Origin: Geodermatophilus bullaregiensis
Lineage (GTDB): Bacteria; Actinomycetota; Actinomycetes; Mycobacteriales; Geodermatophilaceae
Assembly (NCBI RefSeq): GCF_016907675.1
Contig: NZ_JAFBCJ010000001.1
Span: 2,604,001 to 2,668,000, forward strand
Direction: 5' to 3'
DNA: 64,000 nt
A program made the translations under genes and the position numbers. Each line of letters begins with the position of its first letter. Within the stretch, counting starts at the first letter, position 1. The notes under the pieces are model-generated. The model searched no databases and was not told the origin of the DNA. It saw nothing but the letters and a program-made list of their open reading frames with translations. Below, piece by piece: positions 1,506 through 60,204 of the stretch.

Positions 1506-1722
1506 CAGCGGTGTGCCGATCGGTTGGCGGCCGTGGCCTCCGGCGCCGGCGGTGACGTGCGCCGAGGGCTCGTCCTGGAGACCGGATGCGCCGTGGGCGC
1601 ACCTTGCTGCAGCTCACGCCCCCACCGTGGTCAGCCGACCGGCACCAGCTCCTGCCGGCGTGCGAGCCCGGGCCAGCACTCGGCAACCAACGCGCACACC
1701 GCTGTGGGTCGCGGCCCGGCCG

Positions 1723-1772
1723 GGTCCCGCCGCGAGCCTGCGAGTGGTGGGGGGTAGGGGGTCCTTCCACTG
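1723..1772 (+). repeat. Dispersed GC-rich palindromic repeat, single copy
   Basis: A 50-bp element that begins GGTCCCGCCGCGAGCCTGCG and ends GGGGGTCCTTCCACTG. It matches the repeats at 46310, 50392 (reverse strand), 55961-56257 and 59913. It can fold through CCCGCC pairing with a downstream G-rich arm. It lies in the 409-bp gap (1506-1914) between the ABC gene and the SDR gene; I see no coding sequence elsewhere in that gap. Confidence 0.75.
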
Positions 1773-10731: not shown

Positions 10732-10859
10732 AGGAGGGGTCCCCTCTCGCGGGGTGTGGATGTGGGTGTGTCAGCAGACCGGTGGCAGCTCGTCAGCCCG
10801 ACGTCGATCCGGGCCCGCCCGGCGGTTCGAGGAGTGACGCTGCAGAACGGTGGTGTGGC

Positions 10860-12026: not shown

Positions 12027-13037
12027 ATGAGCCGCCTCGTCGCGACCGCGAAGCTCCTCCGCGGCGGCGGGGTGCCGTGGTTGCGCGCTGCCCGTGACGG
12101 TCTGGCCGCCGTCCGGCTCGCGGTGGCCGCGGCAGGCTCGTCCACCGGCGTGCTCGAGTGCCTGCGGGACGGGCCGGTCGGCACCGCTTCCGTGCGTGCG
12201 CAGCTCGGCCTCGACGACGGTGGCCTGCTCGAGCCGTGGCTGCGGGTGCTGCAGGCGCACGGGCTCGTCCGCGCCTCGGACGCCGGGTGGTCACTGTCCC
12301 GGCGCGGACGGCGGCTGCTGGACGACGAGGTGCTGCGCGCCGCGTACGAGGGGTTCGCCGGCTTCCACACCGGGCTCTATCGGGAGCTCCCTCGCCAGCT
12401 GCGCGGGGGGACGCCACGCCGCGACGTCGCGGAGCAGGGGGAGACGATCGCCCAGCTCACTCGGGCGATGGAGCCGGTCCTGCACGAGGCGCTGGTGGCC
12501 GCGGTGCGTGAGGTGCGTCCCGCGCGGGTGCTCGACGTCGGCTGCGGGGCGGGGCAGAACCTGGCCGCGATGCTGGCCGCCGCGCCGGTGGCGGAGGGCA
12601 CGGGGATCGAGGTCGACGACGCCGTCGCCGACCTCGCCGAGCGGCTGCTCGCGCGGCGAGGGCTGACCGGGCGGGCTCGCGTGTTGCGCGGCGACGTCGC
12701 GGCCCTGGCGGCCGGCGACCGGGCCGGCGGCCCCTACGACCTCGCGCTCCTCGCCAACGTCGTCTACTACCTGCCGCTGGCCGAGCGGGTCCCGCTGTTC
12801 CGGGCCGTGGCGGGCCTGCTGTCCGAGGGTGGCGCGCTGCTGGTCACGACGACCGCCGCCACGTCCGACCCGTTCAGTCGGCACTTCGACCTGCTGCTCC
12901 GCGCCCAGGGCAGAGGCATGGAGCTGCCCGAGGTGGAGCCGCTGCGCCAGCAGCTCGCCGATGCGGGGCTGCGGCCTGCACCGGCCCGGCGGCTCGCGCC
13001 GGGGCAGCCGCTGGTCGCGGTGGCGGCCCGGCGCTGA
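12027..13037 (+). CDS. SAM-dependent methyltransferase with N-terminal winged helix
   Basis: 336 aa from ATG 12027. The N-terminal third (about residues 30-100) looks like the winged-helix dimerisation domain of O-methyltransferase-like enzymes. The Rossmann part starts with VLDVGCGAGQNL near residue 168, the SAM-binding glycine loop, and continues with an acidic motif II (GIEVDD) and NVVYYLPLAER. Substrate unknown; small-molecule O- or C-methylation is most likely by family. It is sandwiched between two decayed transposase ends in the same orientation and uses some A/T-ending codons, so acquisition by transfer is plausible. No partner gene is adjacent. Confidence 0.85.
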   Translation: MSRLVATAKLLRGGGVPWLRAARDGLAAVRLAVAAAGSSTGVLECLRDGPVGTASVRAQLGLDDGGLLEPWLRVLQAHGLVRASDAGWSLSRRGRRLLDDEVLRAAYEGFAGFHTGLYRELPRQLRGGTPRRDVAEQGETIAQLTRAMEPVLHEALVAAVREVRPARVLDVGCGAGQNLAAMLAAAPVAEGTGIEVDDAVADLAERLLARRGLTGRARVLRGDVAALAAGDRAGGPYDLALLANVVYYLPLAERVPLFRAVAGLLSEGGALLVTTTAATSDPFSRHFDLLLRAQGRGMELPEVEPLRQQLADAGLRPAPARRLAPGQPLVAVAARR

Positions 13038-19709: not shown

Positions 19710-19736
19710 GGCCCTCCTGCGGCGGGCAGGAGGGCC
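19710..19736 (-). terminator. Terminator of crgA
   Basis: GGCCCTCCTGC (19710-19720) pairs perfectly with GCAGGAGGGCC (19726-19736) over a 5-nt loop, just after the crgA stop on the minus strand. A second imperfect hairpin with CCCCCGTCC/GGACGAGGG arms lies at about 19661-19698. Confidence 0.75.
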
Positions 19737-19741
19737 CGTCC

Positions 19742-36507: not shown

Positions 36508-37746
36508 TCAGGCTGCGGGTCGGAGGCCGGCGCCGACGAGGATCTCGGTGCCGTCGGGCCGCCAGGTGCGCCATCGGCCATCGGGTTGTCGTTCGACGCG
36601 GAAGCCGTGGTGGACCTTGGTGTGGTGCCGCTCGCACAGCAGCGCCGAGTTGGCCAGGCTGGTCTCGCCGCCGTCGAGCCAGTGGACCAGGTGGTGCACG
36701 TCGCACCACCAGGTCGGCGCTCCGCAGCCGGCGAACACGCACCCGCCGTCGCGCAGGTCCACCGCGCGACGCAGGTAGCGGCCGGCGAGGCGCTGCTCGC
36801 GGCCCAGGTCCAGTGGCGCCCCGTCGGGGCCCATCACCACGCGGGAGACGGTGGCGTCGCAGGCGATCCAGCGGGCGCGGGCGGCGGAGATCACCGCACC
36901 GAAGCCGAGCTGGGCGGTCGCCGGACCGGTGGCCGGGTCGGTGAGGTCGTCGAGGTCGATGCGCACGGCCACGTGTGGCTTGACGGTCCGCAGGACGGGC
37001 AGGGAGCCGCCGGCCAGCGCGTTGTCGGCCAGCTGGACGAAGGCGTCACCGAGCTGCTGGGTGCGGCTGCGGTCGTCACCGGCGCACCGGCCGGCCTGCA
37101 GGATCGCCTCCAGCGCGGCCTGCACCTTCTCCCCACCCACGGCGTCGAGGTCGAAGCGGCCGCTGATCGACCCGTCGGCGTGCTTGGCGATGACCAGCCG
37201 CCGCCCCTCGGTGGGGTCGGGTTCAGGACCGTCGGGATCCAGCCGCGCCAGGTAGCCCTGCACGACCTCGGCCAGCTCCTTATGTGCCTTGGCAGCGGCC
37301 ACCACCGCCAGTGCGGCGTCCACCTCGCCGAGGTCCACGTCCTGCGCGGCCGCCTTCGCCACGTTGTCCGGCTCACCGATCTGGGCGATGACGGCGGCCT
37401 GCCCGGCGGTGATCGAGCCGGCGGCGAACGCCGCCTCGACTGCCGGGAGCTGCTCCAGCGCCCGACCGGTCCTGACCAGCCGGGAGGCATCGGTGTCGGA
37501 CAGGTGCCCGTGCCCGCGCAGCCACGAGGCCATGGACTTCAGGCCGTCGTGCTCCGGGGCCTGCGCCAGCTCACCCTGCCGCACCACACGGGCCAGGTGC
37601 GCGGCGAGCTTGTTGCTGGCGGTCAGCAGCCCGCGCAGCCGCTCGTTGAGCTGTGGACCCAGCATCGCGTGTAGGTCGTCGTCGGCCAGATCGTCGATCG
37701 CGGCCAGCAGCGCACCCACCGCGTCTCCCGGTCGACTCGAACGCAT
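36508..37746 (-). CDS. DUF222-HNH endonuclease family protein (intact copy)
   Basis: 412 aa. The N-terminal 300 residues are the DUF222 (13E12 repeat) domain with SMASWLRGHGHLSDTDASRL, GSITAGQAAVIAQIGEPDNV and GRFDLDAVGGEKVQAALEAI. The C-terminal HNH nuclease has CVFAGCGAPTWWCDVHHLVH, then GGETSLANSALLCERHHTKV, with all Cys and His residues. The family is abundant and multicopy in Actinobacteria and often tied to mobile DNA; its biological role is unknown. A close, broken paralogue lies at 58969-60176. The 233-bp upstream gap holds no feature I recognise. Confidence 0.93.
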   Translation of the reverse strand: MRSSRPGDAVGALLAAIDDLADDDLHAMLGPQLNERLRGLLTASNKLAAHLARVVRQGELAQAPEHDGLKSMASWLRGHGHLSDTDASRLVRTGRALEQLPAVEAAFAAGSITAGQAAVIAQIGEPDNVAKAAAQDVDLGEVDAALAVVAAAKAHKELAEVVQGYLARLDPDGPEPDPTEGRRLVIAKHADGSISGRFDLDAVGGEKVQAALEAILQAGRCAGDDRSRTQQLGDAFVQLADNALAGGSLPVLRTVKPHVAVRIDLDDLTDPATGPATAQLGFGAVISAARARWIACDATVSRVVMGPDGAPLDLGREQRLAGRYLRRAVDLRDGGCVFAGCGAPTWWCDVHHLVHWLDGGETSLANSALLCERHHTKVHHGFRVERQPDGRWRTWRPDGTEILVGAGLRPAA

Positions 37747-46250: not shown

Positions 46251-46309
46251 CCCGCCGGGCGTAACCTGTCCACCGTCCGAGCGGCCTCCTCCGGGCGGCC
46301 TGCTCGCAG

Positions 46310-46360
46310 GGTCCCGCCGCGGGCCTGCGAGTGGTGAGGGGCGAGGAGGTCCTGCAACTG
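46310..46360 (+). repeat. Dispersed palindromic repeat overlapping a gene start
   Basis: A 51-bp copy starting GGTCCCGCCGCGGGCCTGCG and ending GGTCCTGCAACTG. It aligns with the copy at 1723 over its whole length with few differences. It lies 60-110 nt after the CYTH-CHAD stop and covers the first codons of the metallophosphoesterase frame, whose only GAGGAGG (46343-46349) belongs to the repeat. Confidence 0.7.
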
Positions 46361-50391: not shown

Positions 50392-50438
50392 CCGCGGGAG
50401 GACCCCGTCCTCCCCACCCTTCGCGAGCTCAGGGCGGG
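50392..50438 (-). repeat. Dispersed palindromic repeat, reverse orientation
   Basis: Read on the minus strand, GGTCCCGCCCTGAGCTCGCG then GGGTGGGGAGGACGGGGTCC. It shares the GGTCCCGCC start, the GAGC-x-x-GCGA core and the GGGGTCC end with the other copies. It lies between the hypothetical gene and the end of the enoyl-CoA hydratase gene. Confidence 0.55.
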
Positions 50439-50454
50439 ACCCGGGACGGGGCCG

Positions 50455-55811: not shown

Positions 55812-55960
55812 GGGTCGTTCCTCCGAGTCGGACGGGGTGGGGCCCTCGGGGAGCCGGTCCAGCCCTGCACGCTAACCGGGCTCCCCGTCCGGACCGCGGA
55901 GGTCGGCGGCGGGTCCACCCGGCCTGCCCGGTGCCCGTGGTCCCGTCCCGGCTCCTCTCG

Positions 55961-56257
55961 GGTCCCGCCGTGAGCGTGCGAGGGGCGGGGGGCAGGGCGG
56001 CCCCCCGCAGGGTCCCGCCGTGAGCGTGCGAGGGGCGGGGGGCAGGGCGGCCCCCCGCAGGGTCCCGCCGTGAGCGTGCGAGGGGCGGGGGGCAGGGCGG
56101 CCCCCCGCAGGGTCCCGCCGTGAGCGTGCGAGGGGCGGGGGGCAGGGCGGCCCCCCGCAGGGTCCCGCCGTGAGCGTGCGAGGGGCGGGGGGCAGGGCGG
56201 CCCCCTGCAGGGTCCCGCCGTGAGCGTGCGAGGGGCGGGGGGCAGGGGGTCCTTCTA
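55961..56257 (+). repeat. Head-to-tail array of a 50-bp palindromic repeat
   Basis: Five complete 50-bp units (starts at 55961, 56011, 56061, 56111, 56161) and a terminal copy (56211-56257). Each begins GGTCCCGCCGTGAGCGTGCG and continues with GGGGCGGGGGGCAGGGCGG and CCCCCCGCAG. By eye the units are identical except for one C-to-T in the fifth. The last copy ends in GGGGGTCCTTCT like the dispersed single copies. There are no spacers. The array fills the space upstream of cinA, whose GTG is 12 nt further on. Confidence 0.93.
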
Positions 56258-56268
56258 GGGTCGACCGG

Positions 56269-57552
56269 GTGGGCACGCGCGCGGGCATCGTCGTCACCGG
56301 CACCGAGGTCCTGACCGGCCGGGTCGCCGACCGCAACGGCCCCTGGCTCGCCGAGGAGCTGCGGCGGGCCGGCGTCGACGTCGGCACCGTCCTGGTGGTC
56401 GGCGACCGGCCCGAGGACGTGCGGGGGGCGCTGGAGTACCTCGCCGGCAGCGGGGTGGCGCTCGTGATCACCTCCGGCGGGCTGGGTCCCACCGCCGACG
56501 ACCTCACCGCCGCGGTGGTGGGCGAGGTGCAGGGCCGCCCCCTCGACGTCGACCCGGGGCTGGAGCAGCGGGTCGCCGCCGTCGTCGAGCGGCTGATGTC
56601 GCGCCGCGGCTGGCGGGCCGACCCGGAGGCCACCGCGGCCGGCGTCCGCAAGCAGGCGATGGTCCCCGCCGGTGCCACGGTGCTCGAGCCGGTCGGGACC
56701 GCGCCGGGCCTCGTCGTCCCGCCCGCCGAGGGGCGCACCGGACCGGTGGTCGTGGTGCTCCCCGGGCCGCCGTCGGAGCTGCAGGGCATGTGGCCGGCCG
56801 CGCTGGCCGCCGAGGCGGTGCGCGGGGTGCTGGCGGGGGCCACCGAGCTGCGCCAGGAGACGATCCGGCTCTGGGGCACGCTGGAGGCCCAGCTGGCGGC
56901 CACCCTGCGCGCGCACGAGGACGGGCTGGACGGCCTGGAGGTCACGACCTGCCTGCGCGAGGGGGAGCTGGAGATCGTCACGCGCTTCGCGCCGGACGCC
57001 CAGCCCGCCTATGACCGGCTGGCCGCCGTCCTCGCCGAGGAGTTCGCCGCCACGCTGTTCTCCACCGGGCCAACGCTCGACGACCTGGTCGCCGGGGCGC
57101 TGGAGGACCGGGGGCTGACCATCGCCACCGCCGAGTCCTGCACCGGCGGGCTGCTCGTCGCCCGGCTGATCGAGCGGCCCGGTTCCTCCGCGTGGGTCCT
57201 CGGCGGGATCACCTCCTACGCCAACTCGGCCAAGGAGCAGCTCGTCGGCGTGCCGGGGGAGGTGCTGGCCGAGTTCGGTGCGGTGAGCCCCCAGGTGGCG
57301 CTGGCGCTGGCCGAGGGCGCGCGGGCGCGGTTCGGGACCGACGTCGGGGTCGGCATCACCGGCATCGCCGGTCCGGGCGGCGGGACGCCGGACAAGCCCG
57401 TGGGCACCGTGCACCTGTGCGTCGTCGGCCCGGACGGCCGGCAGGCCCGGTCGGTGCGGTTGCACGGCTCGCGGACGGCGGTGCGCGAGCGTTCCGTCGT
57501 CCTGGCGATGCACCTGCTGCGACAGCTGCTGCTCGGCGGCCCGCCGGCGTGA
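56269..57552 (+). CDS. cinA: CinA family nicotinamide-nucleotide amidohydrolase/competence-damage protein
   Basis: 427 aa from GTG 56269, 12 nt after the repeat array. The N-terminal molybdopterin-binding-like domain has GIVVTGTEVLTGRVADRNGP, TSGGLGPTADDLTAAVVGEV and LPGPPSELQGMW. The C-terminal PncC-type amidase has the catalytic Ser290 in TAESCTGGLLVARL and GITGIAGPGGGTPDKPVGTV. It likely recycles NMN from damaged NAD by deamidation and may act on ADP-ribose. It overlaps the next gene by 4 nt (GTGA). There is no clear ribosome site; the repeat array occupies that region. Confidence 0.94.
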   Translation: MGTRAGIVVTGTEVLTGRVADRNGPWLAEELRRAGVDVGTVLVVGDRPEDVRGALEYLAGSGVALVITSGGLGPTADDLTAAVVGEVQGRPLDVDPGLEQRVAAVVERLMSRRGWRADPEATAAGVRKQAMVPAGATVLEPVGTAPGLVVPPAEGRTGPVVVVLPGPPSELQGMWPAALAAEAVRGVLAGATELRQETIRLWGTLEAQLAATLRAHEDGLDGLEVTTCLREGELEIVTRFAPDAQPAYDRLAAVLAEEFAATLFSTGPTLDDLVAGALEDRGLTIATAESCTGGLLVARLIERPGSSAWVLGGITSYANSAKEQLVGVPGEVLAEFGAVSPQVALALAEGARARFGTDVGVGITGIAGPGGGTPDKPVGTVHLCVVGPDGRQARSVRLHGSRTAVRERSVVLAMHLLRQLLLGGPPA

Positions 57553-57901
57553 GGGTCCTGACCGTGCCGGCCCGGGAGCTGACGCCGTACGGCAGCACCG
57601 GCGCCTCGCTGGTGCGCGCAGCGCTGGTCGAGCAGCCGCAGGACGGCTTCGCCGTCGACGTCGTCCGCCTGGCGCCGGGCGGCACGCTCGGCCGGCACCC
57701 CACCCGGCTCTGGCAGCTGTTCCTCGCCGTGGAGGGCAGCGGCTGGGTGGCGGGGTCCGACGGCGCCGGCGTCGGCTCGGCACGGGGCAGGCGGCGCTGT
57801 GGGAGCCGGGGGAGGAGCACGCCTCCGGCACGGACGACGGGCTGCTCGCCGTGGTGCTGCAGTGCCGGGCCCCGCTGACCGCTGCCGAGGAGGCGCCGTG
57901 A
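57549..57901 (+). pseudogene. Cupin-like protein, frameshifted
   Basis: GTG 57549 overlaps cinA by 4 nt. The reading frame is coherent through DVVRLAPGGTLGRHPTRLWQ and LFLAVEGSGWVAGSDG, then turns into Arg/Cys/Pro-rich nonsense and stops at 57878. A shift of one base near 57770-57785 restores TGQAALWEPGEEHASGTDDG, LLAVVLQCRAPL and a TGA at 57899-57901 that overlaps the next gene's GTG by 4 nt. So a frame change is likely, either real or a sequencing error. The product would be a small cupin of about 115 aa; function unknown. Confidence 0.75.
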
Positions 57902-58293
57902 CCGTCCTGACCCTGCACGCCACCGGACCGGAGGCGCCGGGCGAGGTGTGGGAGCGCTACGCCCGGCCGGCGCGGTGGCCGACGTGGGCGCCGCAGATCC
58001 TCGGGGTGCAGGTGCCCGAGCCCCGGCTGACCGCCGGGCTGCAGGGGCGGGTGCGCGGGCCGGTGGGGCTGACGCTGCCGTTCGTCGTCGAGTCGGTGGA
58101 CGAGGCGGCGCGGCGGTGGTCGTGGACGGTGTCGGCCGGACCGGTGCGTCTGCACCTCCTGCACTGGGTGACCGAGGGGCCGGACGGCGGCAGCACCACG
58201 GGGCTGCGGATCACCGGGCCGCTGCCCGTCGTGGTCGGTTACGCCCCGCTGGCCCAGCTCGCGATCGGCCGGCTGGTCCGCCCGCTGGACTAG
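57898..58293 (+). CDS. SRPBCC-family protein
   Basis: 131 aa from GTG 57898, overlapping the (frame-corrected) cupin by 4 nt. It has the SRPBCC pattern: an N-terminal strand and helix GEVWERYARPARWPTWAPQI, central strands SVDEAARRWSWTVSAGPVRL and a C-terminal helix YAPLAQLAIGRLVRPLD. A ligand-binding role is likely by fold. It ends an apparent cinA-cupin-SRPBCC operon and overlaps the tail of the GNAT remnant on the other strand by 4 nt. Confidence 0.88.
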   Translation: MTVLTLHATGPEAPGEVWERYARPARWPTWAPQILGVQVPEPRLTAGLQGRVRGPVGLTLPFVVESVDEAARRWSWTVSAGPVRLHLLHWVTEGPDGGSTTGLRITGPLPVVVGYAPLAQLAIGRLVRPLD

Positions 58294-58799
58294 CGGTCCC
58301 GCGGCAGCAGCCGCTCGTGCACGAGCACCCGGACGCCCCGCGGGGTGACGTCCTCGCGGTGGACGCGGAACCCGAGCCGGGCGGCGAGCCTCCTGCTGGG
58401 CGCGTTGCCGGGGTGGACGACCGCGGTGAGACGGTCGAGTCCGAGCCGGCCGGACGCGACGTCGAGCCAGGCCGTGGCGGCCTCGGCCGCGAGGCCCCGG
58501 CCCTGCGCGTGCCGGGCGAGGACGTAGCCGAGCTCGACCTCGTCCCACTGCGGCCACGGGTGCAGGCCGACGCGGCCGAGCAGCGCGCCCGAGGCCCGCT
58601 CCAGGACGGCGCTCTGACCCCACCCGTGCTCCTGCTAGACCGCCTCAAACCGGGCGACCTGGGCGGCGGTGCCCTCGGCGTCCAGGGCCGCCCCGCCGGT
58701 GTACCGGGCGACGTCGGGGTCCGCGTGGATGCGTGCCAGGGCCGTGGTGTGCCGCTGGACGAGGGGCTCGAGGACCAGCCGCTCGGTCTCCAGGCGCAC
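58290..58799 (-). pseudogene. GNAT acetyltransferase interrupted by an amber codon
   Basis: From GTG 58799 the frame reads VRLETERLVLEPLVQRHTTA, then VARYTGGAALDAEGTAAQVA and RFEAV, then TAG at 58635-58637, codon 55. It continues in the same frame with QEHGWGQSAVLERASGALLG, VELGYVLARHAQGRGLAAEA and NAPSRRLAARLGFRVHRE to a stop at 58290, which together form a complete GNAT acetyltransferase of about 169 aa. The stop probably replaces a Trp codon. Real inactivation or a sequencing error are the options. Confidence 0.82.
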
Positions 58800-58968
58800 G
58801 CGGGCACGGTAGTGCGGCGCCCGTGCGCTGGTCGGGGCCGGTCGTCCGGCTCCCTCCGCGACAGCCGCCGGAGATCTGTGGACACCGCTCTGAGCTGGGG
58901 ATCCACCCCGCACGGGTCCTGCGGGTCCGATAGGCTTCGAACACTTGATCGAACCGGTGGGAGGTGAC

Positions 58969-60176
58969 GTGGACGAGCTGGCCGCCGCGCTGGACGCGCT
59001 CGCCTCCGACGACCTGCCGGCGGTGTTCGGCCCGCAGCTTCTCGAGCGGCCGCGGGTCCTGCTGGCTGCGCAGAACCGGCTGGCGGCCGAGGTGGCCCGC
59101 ACGGTGCGGCAGGCCGAGCTCGCCCAGGCCGCCGAGGTGGACGGGCTCCGGAGCGTGGCCTCGTGGCTGCGCGGGCACGGGCACCTGTCCGCGGGTGAGG
59201 CGGCGCGGGTGGTGGCCGTCGGGCGGGCGCTGGAGCAGCTGCCCGCCGTGGCGGCCGCGTGCGCCGCCGGGGCGGTGACCGCCGGGCAGGTCACCGAGAT
59301 CGCGCGGATCGTGCAGCCGGATCATGCCGCCCGCGCCGCCGACCAGGGCGTCGACGTGGCCGAGGTCGACGCCGCGCTGGCGGTCGCGGCGAGCCTGCAG
59401 ACCCATCAGGAGCTGGCCGGCACGGTGCGCGGCTATCTGGACCGGCTCGATCCCGACGGGCCCGAGCCCGACCCCACCGCGGGCCGCCGGCTGGTCATCG
59501 CCGAGTACGCCGACGGGTCGATCAGCGGCCGTTTCGACCTCGACGCCGCCGGTGCGGAGAAGTTCCAGGCCGCGATCGAGCCGTTCGTGCAGGCCGACCG
59601 CCCCGCCGGCGATGACCGCACCCGCATCCAGCGGCAGGGCGACGCGCTGGTGCAGCTGGCCGACAACGCTCTCGCGTCGGGGAGCCTGCCCACCCTGCGG
59701 GCACAAGCCGCAGATCGCCGTGGTCATCGACCTGGCGGACCTGGTCGACCCCGGCACCGGACCCGGCGCCGCCCGGATGGGCTTCGGCGCCACGATCTCC
59801 GCCGCCCGGGCGCGCTGGCTGGCCTGCGACGCCACCGTCTCCCGCGTCGTGATGGGCCCCGAGGGCGTCCCGCTGGACCTGGGCCGCGAGCAGCGCCTCG
59901 CCGACCGGCCGGCCCCTCCGCAGGGGCCCGCCGCGAGCTCGCGAGTGGCGGGGGGCGGAGGGGTCCTTTCACTGGTGGTGCGACGTGCACCACCTCGTCC
60001 ACTGGCTCGACGGCGGCGAGACCAACCTGCAGAACTCCGCGCTGCTGTGCGAGCGGCACTACAGCAAGGTCCACCACGGCTTCCGCGTCGAACGACGACC
60101 CGACGGGCGATGGCGCACCTGGCGACCCGACGGCACCCAGATCCTCGTCGGCGCCGGCCTGCAACCGGCCGCTTGA
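58969..60176 (+). pseudogene. DUF222-HNH endonuclease family, broken by frameshift and repeat insertion
   Basis: GTG 58969 has GGGAGG 4 nt upstream. The first 735 bases encode a normal DUF222 domain closely related to the gene at 36508. Near 59700 the frame shifts by two missing bases relative to that paralogue (SLPTLR then HKPQIAVVIDLADLV in another frame). At about 59912-59973 the stretch that should encode the first Cys pair of the HNH motif is replaced by a dispersed palindromic repeat. The coding then resumes in a third frame with WWCDVHHLVHWLDGGETNLQ to the stop at 60176. Confidence 0.88.
59913..59973 (+). repeat. Dispersed palindromic repeat inside the DUF222 gene
   Basis: Outer arms CCCCTCCGC (59913-59921) and GCGGAGGGG (59955-59963) pair perfectly. 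Inside, CCCGCC (59927-59932) pairs with GGCGGG (59947-59952) around CGCGAGCTCGCG. The copy ends GGGGTCCTTTCACTG as at 1723. Against the intact paralogue, about 75 bp of coding sequence is replaced by about 60 bp of repeat. Confidence 0.85.
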
Positions 60177-60204
60177 TCAGCCCACCGTCCTCACAGCCGA
60201 CACT

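Follow-up and report, generated by a model that had tools for sequence, protein, structure and literature searches.

The window, by which we mean the whole stretch of 64,000 nucleotides of Geodermatophilus bullaregiensis analyzed here, contains a broken gene (hnhA), with a DUF222 part and a C-terminal HNH part in different frames, and an intact paralogue (hnhB) that we used as the empty-site reference (Table 1). The alignment of hnhA (58945-60176) with hnhB showed 78% identity and collinearity save at two places. One is a 2-nt deficit of hnhA near 59702. At the other, 66 nt between the GACCG and the CTGGTGG of hnhB are swapped for 64 nt (hand count of aligned letters), of which 58 (59911-59968) are a repeat and the remainder junction bases. 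With this segment the first two paired Cys of the HNH region were lost; the part that follows (59972-60176) shares 91% identity with the paralogue along 205 nt. The initial annotation had proposed a replacement of about 75 by about 60 bp at this place; the replacement is real, the lengths are those given here. It mentioned neither the deficit near 59702, nor the two further paralogues that bear the element, nor the position of the repeat relative to stop codons.

Table 1. Coordinates of the genes and repeat copies of the window, with the basis of each assignment.
Feature	Position	Strand	Basis
Element copy	1700..1766	-	covariance-model match, 47.8 bits
Mini-hairpin, outer stem only	19710..19737	-	gene end where the congener G011 has a full copy
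hnhB, intact DUF222+HNH paralogue, empty-site reference	36508..37746	-	Pfam DUF222, E 1e-31; HNH, E 3.7e-5
Element copy	46284..46354	-	covariance-model match, 66.8 bits
Diverged copy, opposite orientation	50396..50444	+	inverted-repeat match to the copy at 1720-1768, 80%; 3 core mismatches
Tandem array, six copies, period 50	55953..56254	-	sequence matches
DUF222 part of hnhA	58945..59910	+	Pfam DUF222 on 58945-59700, E 1.4e-20; alignment
Palindromic element in hnhA	59911..59968	-	sequence; alignment to hnhB; covariance-model match 59898-59968, minus, 75 bits (not independent, this copy being part of the model alignment)
C-terminal HNH part of hnhA, different frame	59972..60176	+	Pfam HNH on 59970-60173, E 1e-4

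Since its reading frame is broken both at the element and near 59702, hnhA looks like a pseudogene. A programmed frameshift through the element was also considered and rejected: two bearers with an open DUF222 part would need different shifts, and a further frameshift is present in hnhA. Read on the minus strand, the element runs from AAGGACC to GGCC and is adjoined by a TGA of the same strand at 59969-59971. Its outer arms (59911-59921 with 59955-59966) make an 11-bp inverted repeat with one bulged T, and not the 9-bp terminal repeat described at first, while the inner stem pairs 59927-59934 with 59945-59952. No target-site duplication was visible at the HNH junctions in the alignment, as the initial annotation had stated for hnhA. 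When this copy was folded as DNA, z was -1.3 for the plus strand and -2.05 for the minus strand, not clearly better than shuffles. Rfam gave no match up to E 1 in 55900-60200, and at gathering scores the window held three tRNAs only.

The repeat is dispersed over the genome. Its consensus on the minus strand has AAGGACC followed by a variable arm, then CCCCCC-RCC-N-CTCGCNNGCTCG-CGGCGGG-NCCCTGC, and last the arm's complement with GGCC. The likeness of the hnhA element to sequences at 1723, 46310 and 55961, pointed out before, was borne out: a 29-base core matched nine times in the window when 3 mismatches were allowed (none in 100 shuffles). Over the 5.2-Mb genome a 22-base core had 126 matches with at most one mismatch and 181 with at most two, and its reversed control had none. 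The covariance model matched the 150 candidates that were scored, so that its number of matches is at least 150. These numbers uphold the description of the element as a dispersed REP-like palindrome with further copies outside hnhA. Actually, in this genome the repeat is what REP sequences in general are, a short palindrome with more than 100 copies that are mainly extragenic. At one mismatch, the core was present in all 26 genomes of the genus searched and in 33 of the 37 of Geodermatophilaceae (G028, G029, G032 and G034 being those without a match), and in none of the 24 other genomes of the order. With the pattern reversed as a control, two matches appeared in one genome outside the family (G053) and none in the others. 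Copy numbers within the genus went from 9 (G021) to 286 (G003) at the same threshold, with several congeners below 100. Among the loci listed by a scan of named genomes, at least 80, all were from Geodermatophilus, Blastococcus, Modestobacter, Trujillonella, Goekera, unclassified Geodermatophilaceae or a Frankiales MAG.

For the comparison of copies we took 267 kb of the genome without overlap, window included, around the listed matches, a sample in which weaker copies are under-represented. It provided 89 copies; after dropping 13 internal copies of arrays, 76 leading copies were kept. Within the window, the copy at 46284-46354 has orthologous copies in three of seven congeners (G002, G004 and G007) and other sequence in the remaining four, and the array at 55953-56254 corresponds to a single diverged copy in one congener and to a partial copy in another. 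The outer end of this array abuts a CTAG that would be part of the promoter -10 box (TAGGGT) of a plus-strand gene. Further tandem pairs and triplets, with a spacing of 49-53, are found elsewhere in the genome. Such arrays may be what CRISPRFinder reports as questionable CRISPRs in Geodermatophilaceae, of which one study gives 0-7 per genome (PMC9686282). The mini-hairpin of Table 1 is possibly a deletion derivative of the element or a precursor of it. Besides, six of the 76 copies (L003, L004, L015, L024, L109 and L113) carry an extra tail like GTTCCAGCACGTCACC directly after the GGCC end, and a tail of the GTTCCAGCACGTCACC type is sometimes followed by a second half-element.

The repeat is a two-storey hairpin, with a conserved inner stem and loop and an outer stem that varies and keeps its self-complementarity. 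Specifically, the 76 leading copies had 44 different left arms, and in 32 of the 76 the left arm paired perfectly with the right arm over 9 bases; random re-pairing of arms gave a mean of 3.2 perfect 9-bp stems and 9 as the largest number in 500 trials. The outer stem covaries. Changes on both sides amounted to 84 cells in the alignment A1 (67 of the 76 copies; left out were the two HNH copies besides that of hnhA, the one at 1733 in the window and six more) and to 17.7 in shuffles, none of 500 reaching 84, a comparison in which related sequences can exceed shuffles without any structure. When the partners were moved by 1-3 columns, 10-20 both-side changes were left. This slide control, together with the changes of arms between species, supports a real outer stem. 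The conservation was at least 90% in 31 of the 73 alignment columns, loop among them. The wobbles of the inner stem were, on the sense strand, 65 A.C (G.U on the opposite strand) and 4 G.T, mainly in two columns, and the RNA folding energy averaged -38.0 kcal/mol for the opposite strand and -33.0 for the sense strand, the opposite one being better in 58 of the 62 copies kept for this test (14 of the 76 with fewer than 6 arm matches in the fixed register were dropped). Outer arms had no strand preference once pair 1 was set aside (8 vs 6), and both strands of the window copy folded alike as DNA (-21.0 and -20.8). Since two columns dominate and the DNA energies of the window copy are equal, the strand asymmetry of the hairpin is only a hint.

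The position directly after stop codons is the most regular feature of the repeat. An in-frame stop lay directly before the element in 57 of the 76 leading copies, which are thus predominantly downstream of coding regions as REP sequences in general are, and at 35 of 4000 random positions drawn from the same, mostly coding DNA and not from intergenic DNA alone. A stop was counted when its first base fell no more than 12 nt ahead of the start of AAGGACC and no more than 2 nt past it; the frame used was the one with the strongest coding signal. A TGA ended two bases ahead of AAGGACC in 33 of the 57. With a stricter rule for gene ends (52 ends), 43 of the 47 TGA stops beside the element were part of CTGA, vs 86 of 130 elsewhere (p 5e-4), which suggests a moderate enrichment of this tetranucleotide. 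The other 19 copies include the three HNH copies, and 12 of the 19 have TAG or TGA within seven bases; beside some of those at gene starts this motif could be a promoter -10 box. The copies at 1733, 46320 and 59934 and the HNH copies of the congener G002 (L147-L149) have no stop before them and show CAG three bases ahead of AAGG or its variant, in the contexts TCAG, ACAG and CCAG. As CAG is the reverse complement of CTG(A), these contexts may represent a second target orientation. The stop-codon position itself could result from purifying selection with a small target preference.

A location directly behind stop codons, with downstream flanks of which 38 were co-directional and 19 convergent, and a strong hairpin with covariation are also what would be found if the repeats were ordinary intrinsic terminators, alike by shared constraint, and the HNH copy a chance capture. 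We consider this unlikely. The conservation described above, loop included, is beyond what a terminator needs, the T-run on the sense side is absent and the inner-stem wobbles suit the strand opposite to the transcript of the gene. Besides, a separate hairpin of at least 10 bp followed within 110 nt after 13 of 52 copies, vs 12 of 857 random stretches (the other 24 of the 76 copies were skipped because both CTCGC and GCTCG occurred in their stretch, which we took for a further element).

We have compared two gene ends among congeners, and in both the copy is present or absent with the stop codon in place. The first belongs to a response-regulator-like gene that is 86-93% identical in 25 congeners and has its stop codon at the identical place in 26 of 26 genomes. 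A copy with up to 3 core mismatches follows it in five of the 26, namely the own genome, G007, G020, G004 and G013; G001 has a degenerate hairpin, G022 an inverted copy and the rest other sequence. The inverted element of G022 (L342) is diverged, and its tag end lies beside a TCAG that a convergent gene would use as stop codon. At the second gene end, four of the seven genomes with a clear orthologue have a copy (the own genome, G002, G006 and, shortened, G010) and three have none. Six of the seven also have a distinct terminator-like hairpin further downstream here, element present or not, which speaks again against the repeat being the terminator; in G005 none was found in the 150 nt examined. 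Eight of the nine copies at these two ends had exactly complementary arms of 7-9 bases, that of G010 had none, and the arms were of four distinct kinds at the response-regulator end (G007 and G020 sharing one) and of three at the second.

The length difference between filled and empty sites was readable at two gene ends only. In coordinates of the joined stretches, the filled site was longer by 50-80 bp at position 10822 of G004 (vs four congeners) and by 55 bp at position 12151 of G011 (vs two congeners). Both resemble plain insertions, so that replacement, the mode proposed for hnhA and confirmed there, is not the sole pattern. No target-site duplication was seen at the orthologous gene ends compared. 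The species are about 7-27% apart over aligned orthologous blocks, and there was no strain-level empty site among them.

Within the own genome, a protein search found four uninterrupted relatives of hnhB (hnhB included) and three interrupted ones, plus three more distant matches. The three interrupted paralogues all break after residue 323 and resume at 331-341, and all bear the element at identical junctions. In two of them, the closest pair of bearers, the element is identical over 58 of 58 bases and the 60-base windows there hold 1 and 0 differences, although the DUF222 parts are 14% different. The third bearer is 86% identical to an intact paralogue, vs 76% and 79% to the other bearers. 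Same-site copies thus occur in paralogues that are not sisters. G002 had 15 DNA matches to the HNH query, of which nine HNH loci were taken for comparison. Four of the nine bear the element, in a slightly different version, at nearly the same place, and they are mixed among intact paralogues as in the own genome. The right junction lies there 22 nt further along, at the next CTGGTG (counted from the alignment); a deletion between repeats at CTGGTG would explain this shift. The outer arm common to the HNH copies of both genomes is not unique to them, and with the shifted right junction this makes two separate entries conceivable. In bearers and intact HNH copies alike, third codon positions change most. 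This query, which spans the HNH gene and runs into the beginning of the following one, had 14-19 DNA matches per genome in the 26 genomes of the genus, and a search for the junction pattern was positive in at least two of these 26 (the pattern missed the fourth G002 copy). The similarity among the HNH genes compared is patchy, which suggests frequent gene conversion.

The element was absent from the hnhA site in 17 HNH loci of 16 congeners with a readable junction, and for this reason the intact state is most likely ancestral and the element derived, as the initial annotation had supposed. One of these loci is the G004 orthologue, which carries a separate copy at a different site and in the opposite orientation, with 67 nt replaced by 56 (counted). 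We infer one or two entries of the element into the HNH genes and a later spread by gene conversion, because the bearers are interleaved with intact copies. Plain duplication as the origin of same-site copies is unsupported for the same interleaving. The presence of the element inside hnhA had been read as evidence that it moves or is copied. By itself this copy shows no fresh transposition, since the three paralogues share identical junctions and gene conversion is the simpler account.

Three paralogues of the own genome and four of nine in G002 with the element at one place, and another copy elsewhere in the same gene family in G004, might instead suggest that a site-specific element with the HNH genes as its target was inserted independently each time. 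This seems improbable to us: the identical junctions and the 58 identical bases in spite of the 14% difference in DUF222 point to conversion, site and orientation in G004 are different, and the 17 loci mentioned above have nothing at the site. Another possibility is that the replacement was filler DNA, from end joining or microhomology-primed copying at a double-strand break, and that the element has no mobility function. The two separate HNH events, with 66-67 bp lost and 56-64 bp gained, are consistent with it, as are the breakpoints at CTGGTG that differ between the two species, the lack of target duplications and the Ku gene present in the own genome. Nevertheless, the insert was both times a whole or nearly whole element and not a random fragment, elements elsewhere sit behind stop codons that are also present in the empty orthologues, and the dispersal of the family would be left unexplained. 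We see filler DNA as a somewhat unlikely account.

As to the machinery, the RAYT/TnpA_REP transposase suggested as the source was not found. A search of the own genome and 60 relatives for the Y1/RAYT domain (PF01797) gave no match in the own genome or in the 36 other family genomes (E 0.001), while 3 other genomes of the order and 5 of 14 control genomes were positive. Neither did we find a larger parent element: the flanks of the 76 own loci, about 3 kb each, shared in an all-against-all comparison only HNH paralogues, paralogues of other genes and other copies of the element. DNA uptake sequences sit at gene ends as inverted pairs, and a signal for uptake or segregation that transformation and recombination had disseminated would go with the high copy number, the family-wide presence, the conserved core and the position at gene ends. 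The 9-286 copies per genome seem low for this function and variable outer arms are unexpected in it, so we think it very improbable.

The reading that we consider probable is that of a REP-like stop-codon hairpin with a rare entry into HNH genes, followed by gene conversion. Copies would come and go immediately 3' of stop codons that were already there (CTGA in most cases), and would be kept in this place because they are harmless or because they serve as 3'-end structures in RNA or DNA. Most likely the element would move as a structured single strand with an enzyme, or by template switching at gene ends. The hnhA copy would be one of the rare gene-internal ones; its entry, probably once and in a history common to G002, would have cost the DUF222-HNH gene 66 bp of coding sequence by an accident of repair or copying. 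From there, gene conversion would have carried it to sister HNH genes, and a separate replacement would have hit the orthologous gene in G004. A bolder version, which we hold as doubtful, is that of a third, RAYT-independent REP-like superfamily, the machinery of which would recognize CTGA beside a strand-specific hairpin, with the outer stem rewritten at or after arrival and complementary all the same. If true, the hairpin would be mobile and would itself template its second arm anew.

The host gene shares its DUF222 and HNH domains (assigned by Pfam) with what we take to be the REP13E12 / DUF222-HNH multigene family. This family is the target and not the source of the repeat, as its intact copies lack it at the hnhA site. 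MITEs are short, non-coding and dispersed, with terminal inverted repeats, and the element resembles them in all of this. It differs in having no target-site duplication, no conserved outer-arm sequence and no parent transposon with matching ends near the 76 copies.

Proteobacteria are the group from which REP elements are best known, and many of these are credited with mobility through RAYT transposases. In Actinomycetota, a REP-like population that is family-wide, has no Y1 detected, lies a few bases after stop codons and maintains a covarying stem is a clean system for questions about repeat movement and for asking whether such repeats act on mRNA 3' ends; the orthologous gene ends with and without a copy are ready natural pairs for a 3'-end test. 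No published description of the repeat was recognized in the literature searched, subscription papers being outside its scope. The available parts of the Geodermatophilaceae literature contained no palindromic repeat other than CRISPR, and the main text of a 2025 REP survey does not mention Geodermatophil- or Blastococcus (PMC12306157).

The GTAG and CGTC superfamilies, in the available part of their description, are short high-copy imperfect palindromes near gene 3' ends, between co-directional or convergent genes (PMC3733652, Di Nocera et al. 2013). The terminal TAG of GTAG REPs can supply the stop codon, copies of both superfamilies are occasionally inside genes, repair genes included, and CGTC REPs apparently have no dedicated transposase either (PMC3733652). 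As far as this description goes, the repeat studied here is similar in being a palindrome of high copy number at gene 3' ends, in its contact with stop codons and in its occasional gene-internal copies. By contrast, it measures 58 bp vs their 20-40 bp, next to it stands CTGA or some other stop codon and no GTAG or CGTC consensus, and it forms a two-storey hairpin with a varying and covarying outer stem, in Actinomycetota and with no Y1/RAYT in 37 genomes. An unpaired GTAG or CGTC tag was not found: what precedes AAGGACC is CTGA-like, with GTAG in 4 of 52 gene ends, and the other end has no consensus past GGCCG, although 6 of the 76 copies have a GTTCCA... tail, in which CGTC is sometimes present. 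Since this tag and the RAYT are both missing, we use only the label REP-like and file the repeat in neither superfamily.

The 2025 survey gives, for Escherichia coli, 446 of 4072 REPs within 15 nt of a stop codon, with a possible effect on the translation of the upstream gene (PMC12306157). The hairpin a few nt behind the stop codon is the same in both cases, but here 57 of 76 copies have a stop that starts no further than 12 nt from AAGGACC. The best reading of the repeat is a new family of REP-like elements that comes without the usual transposase.
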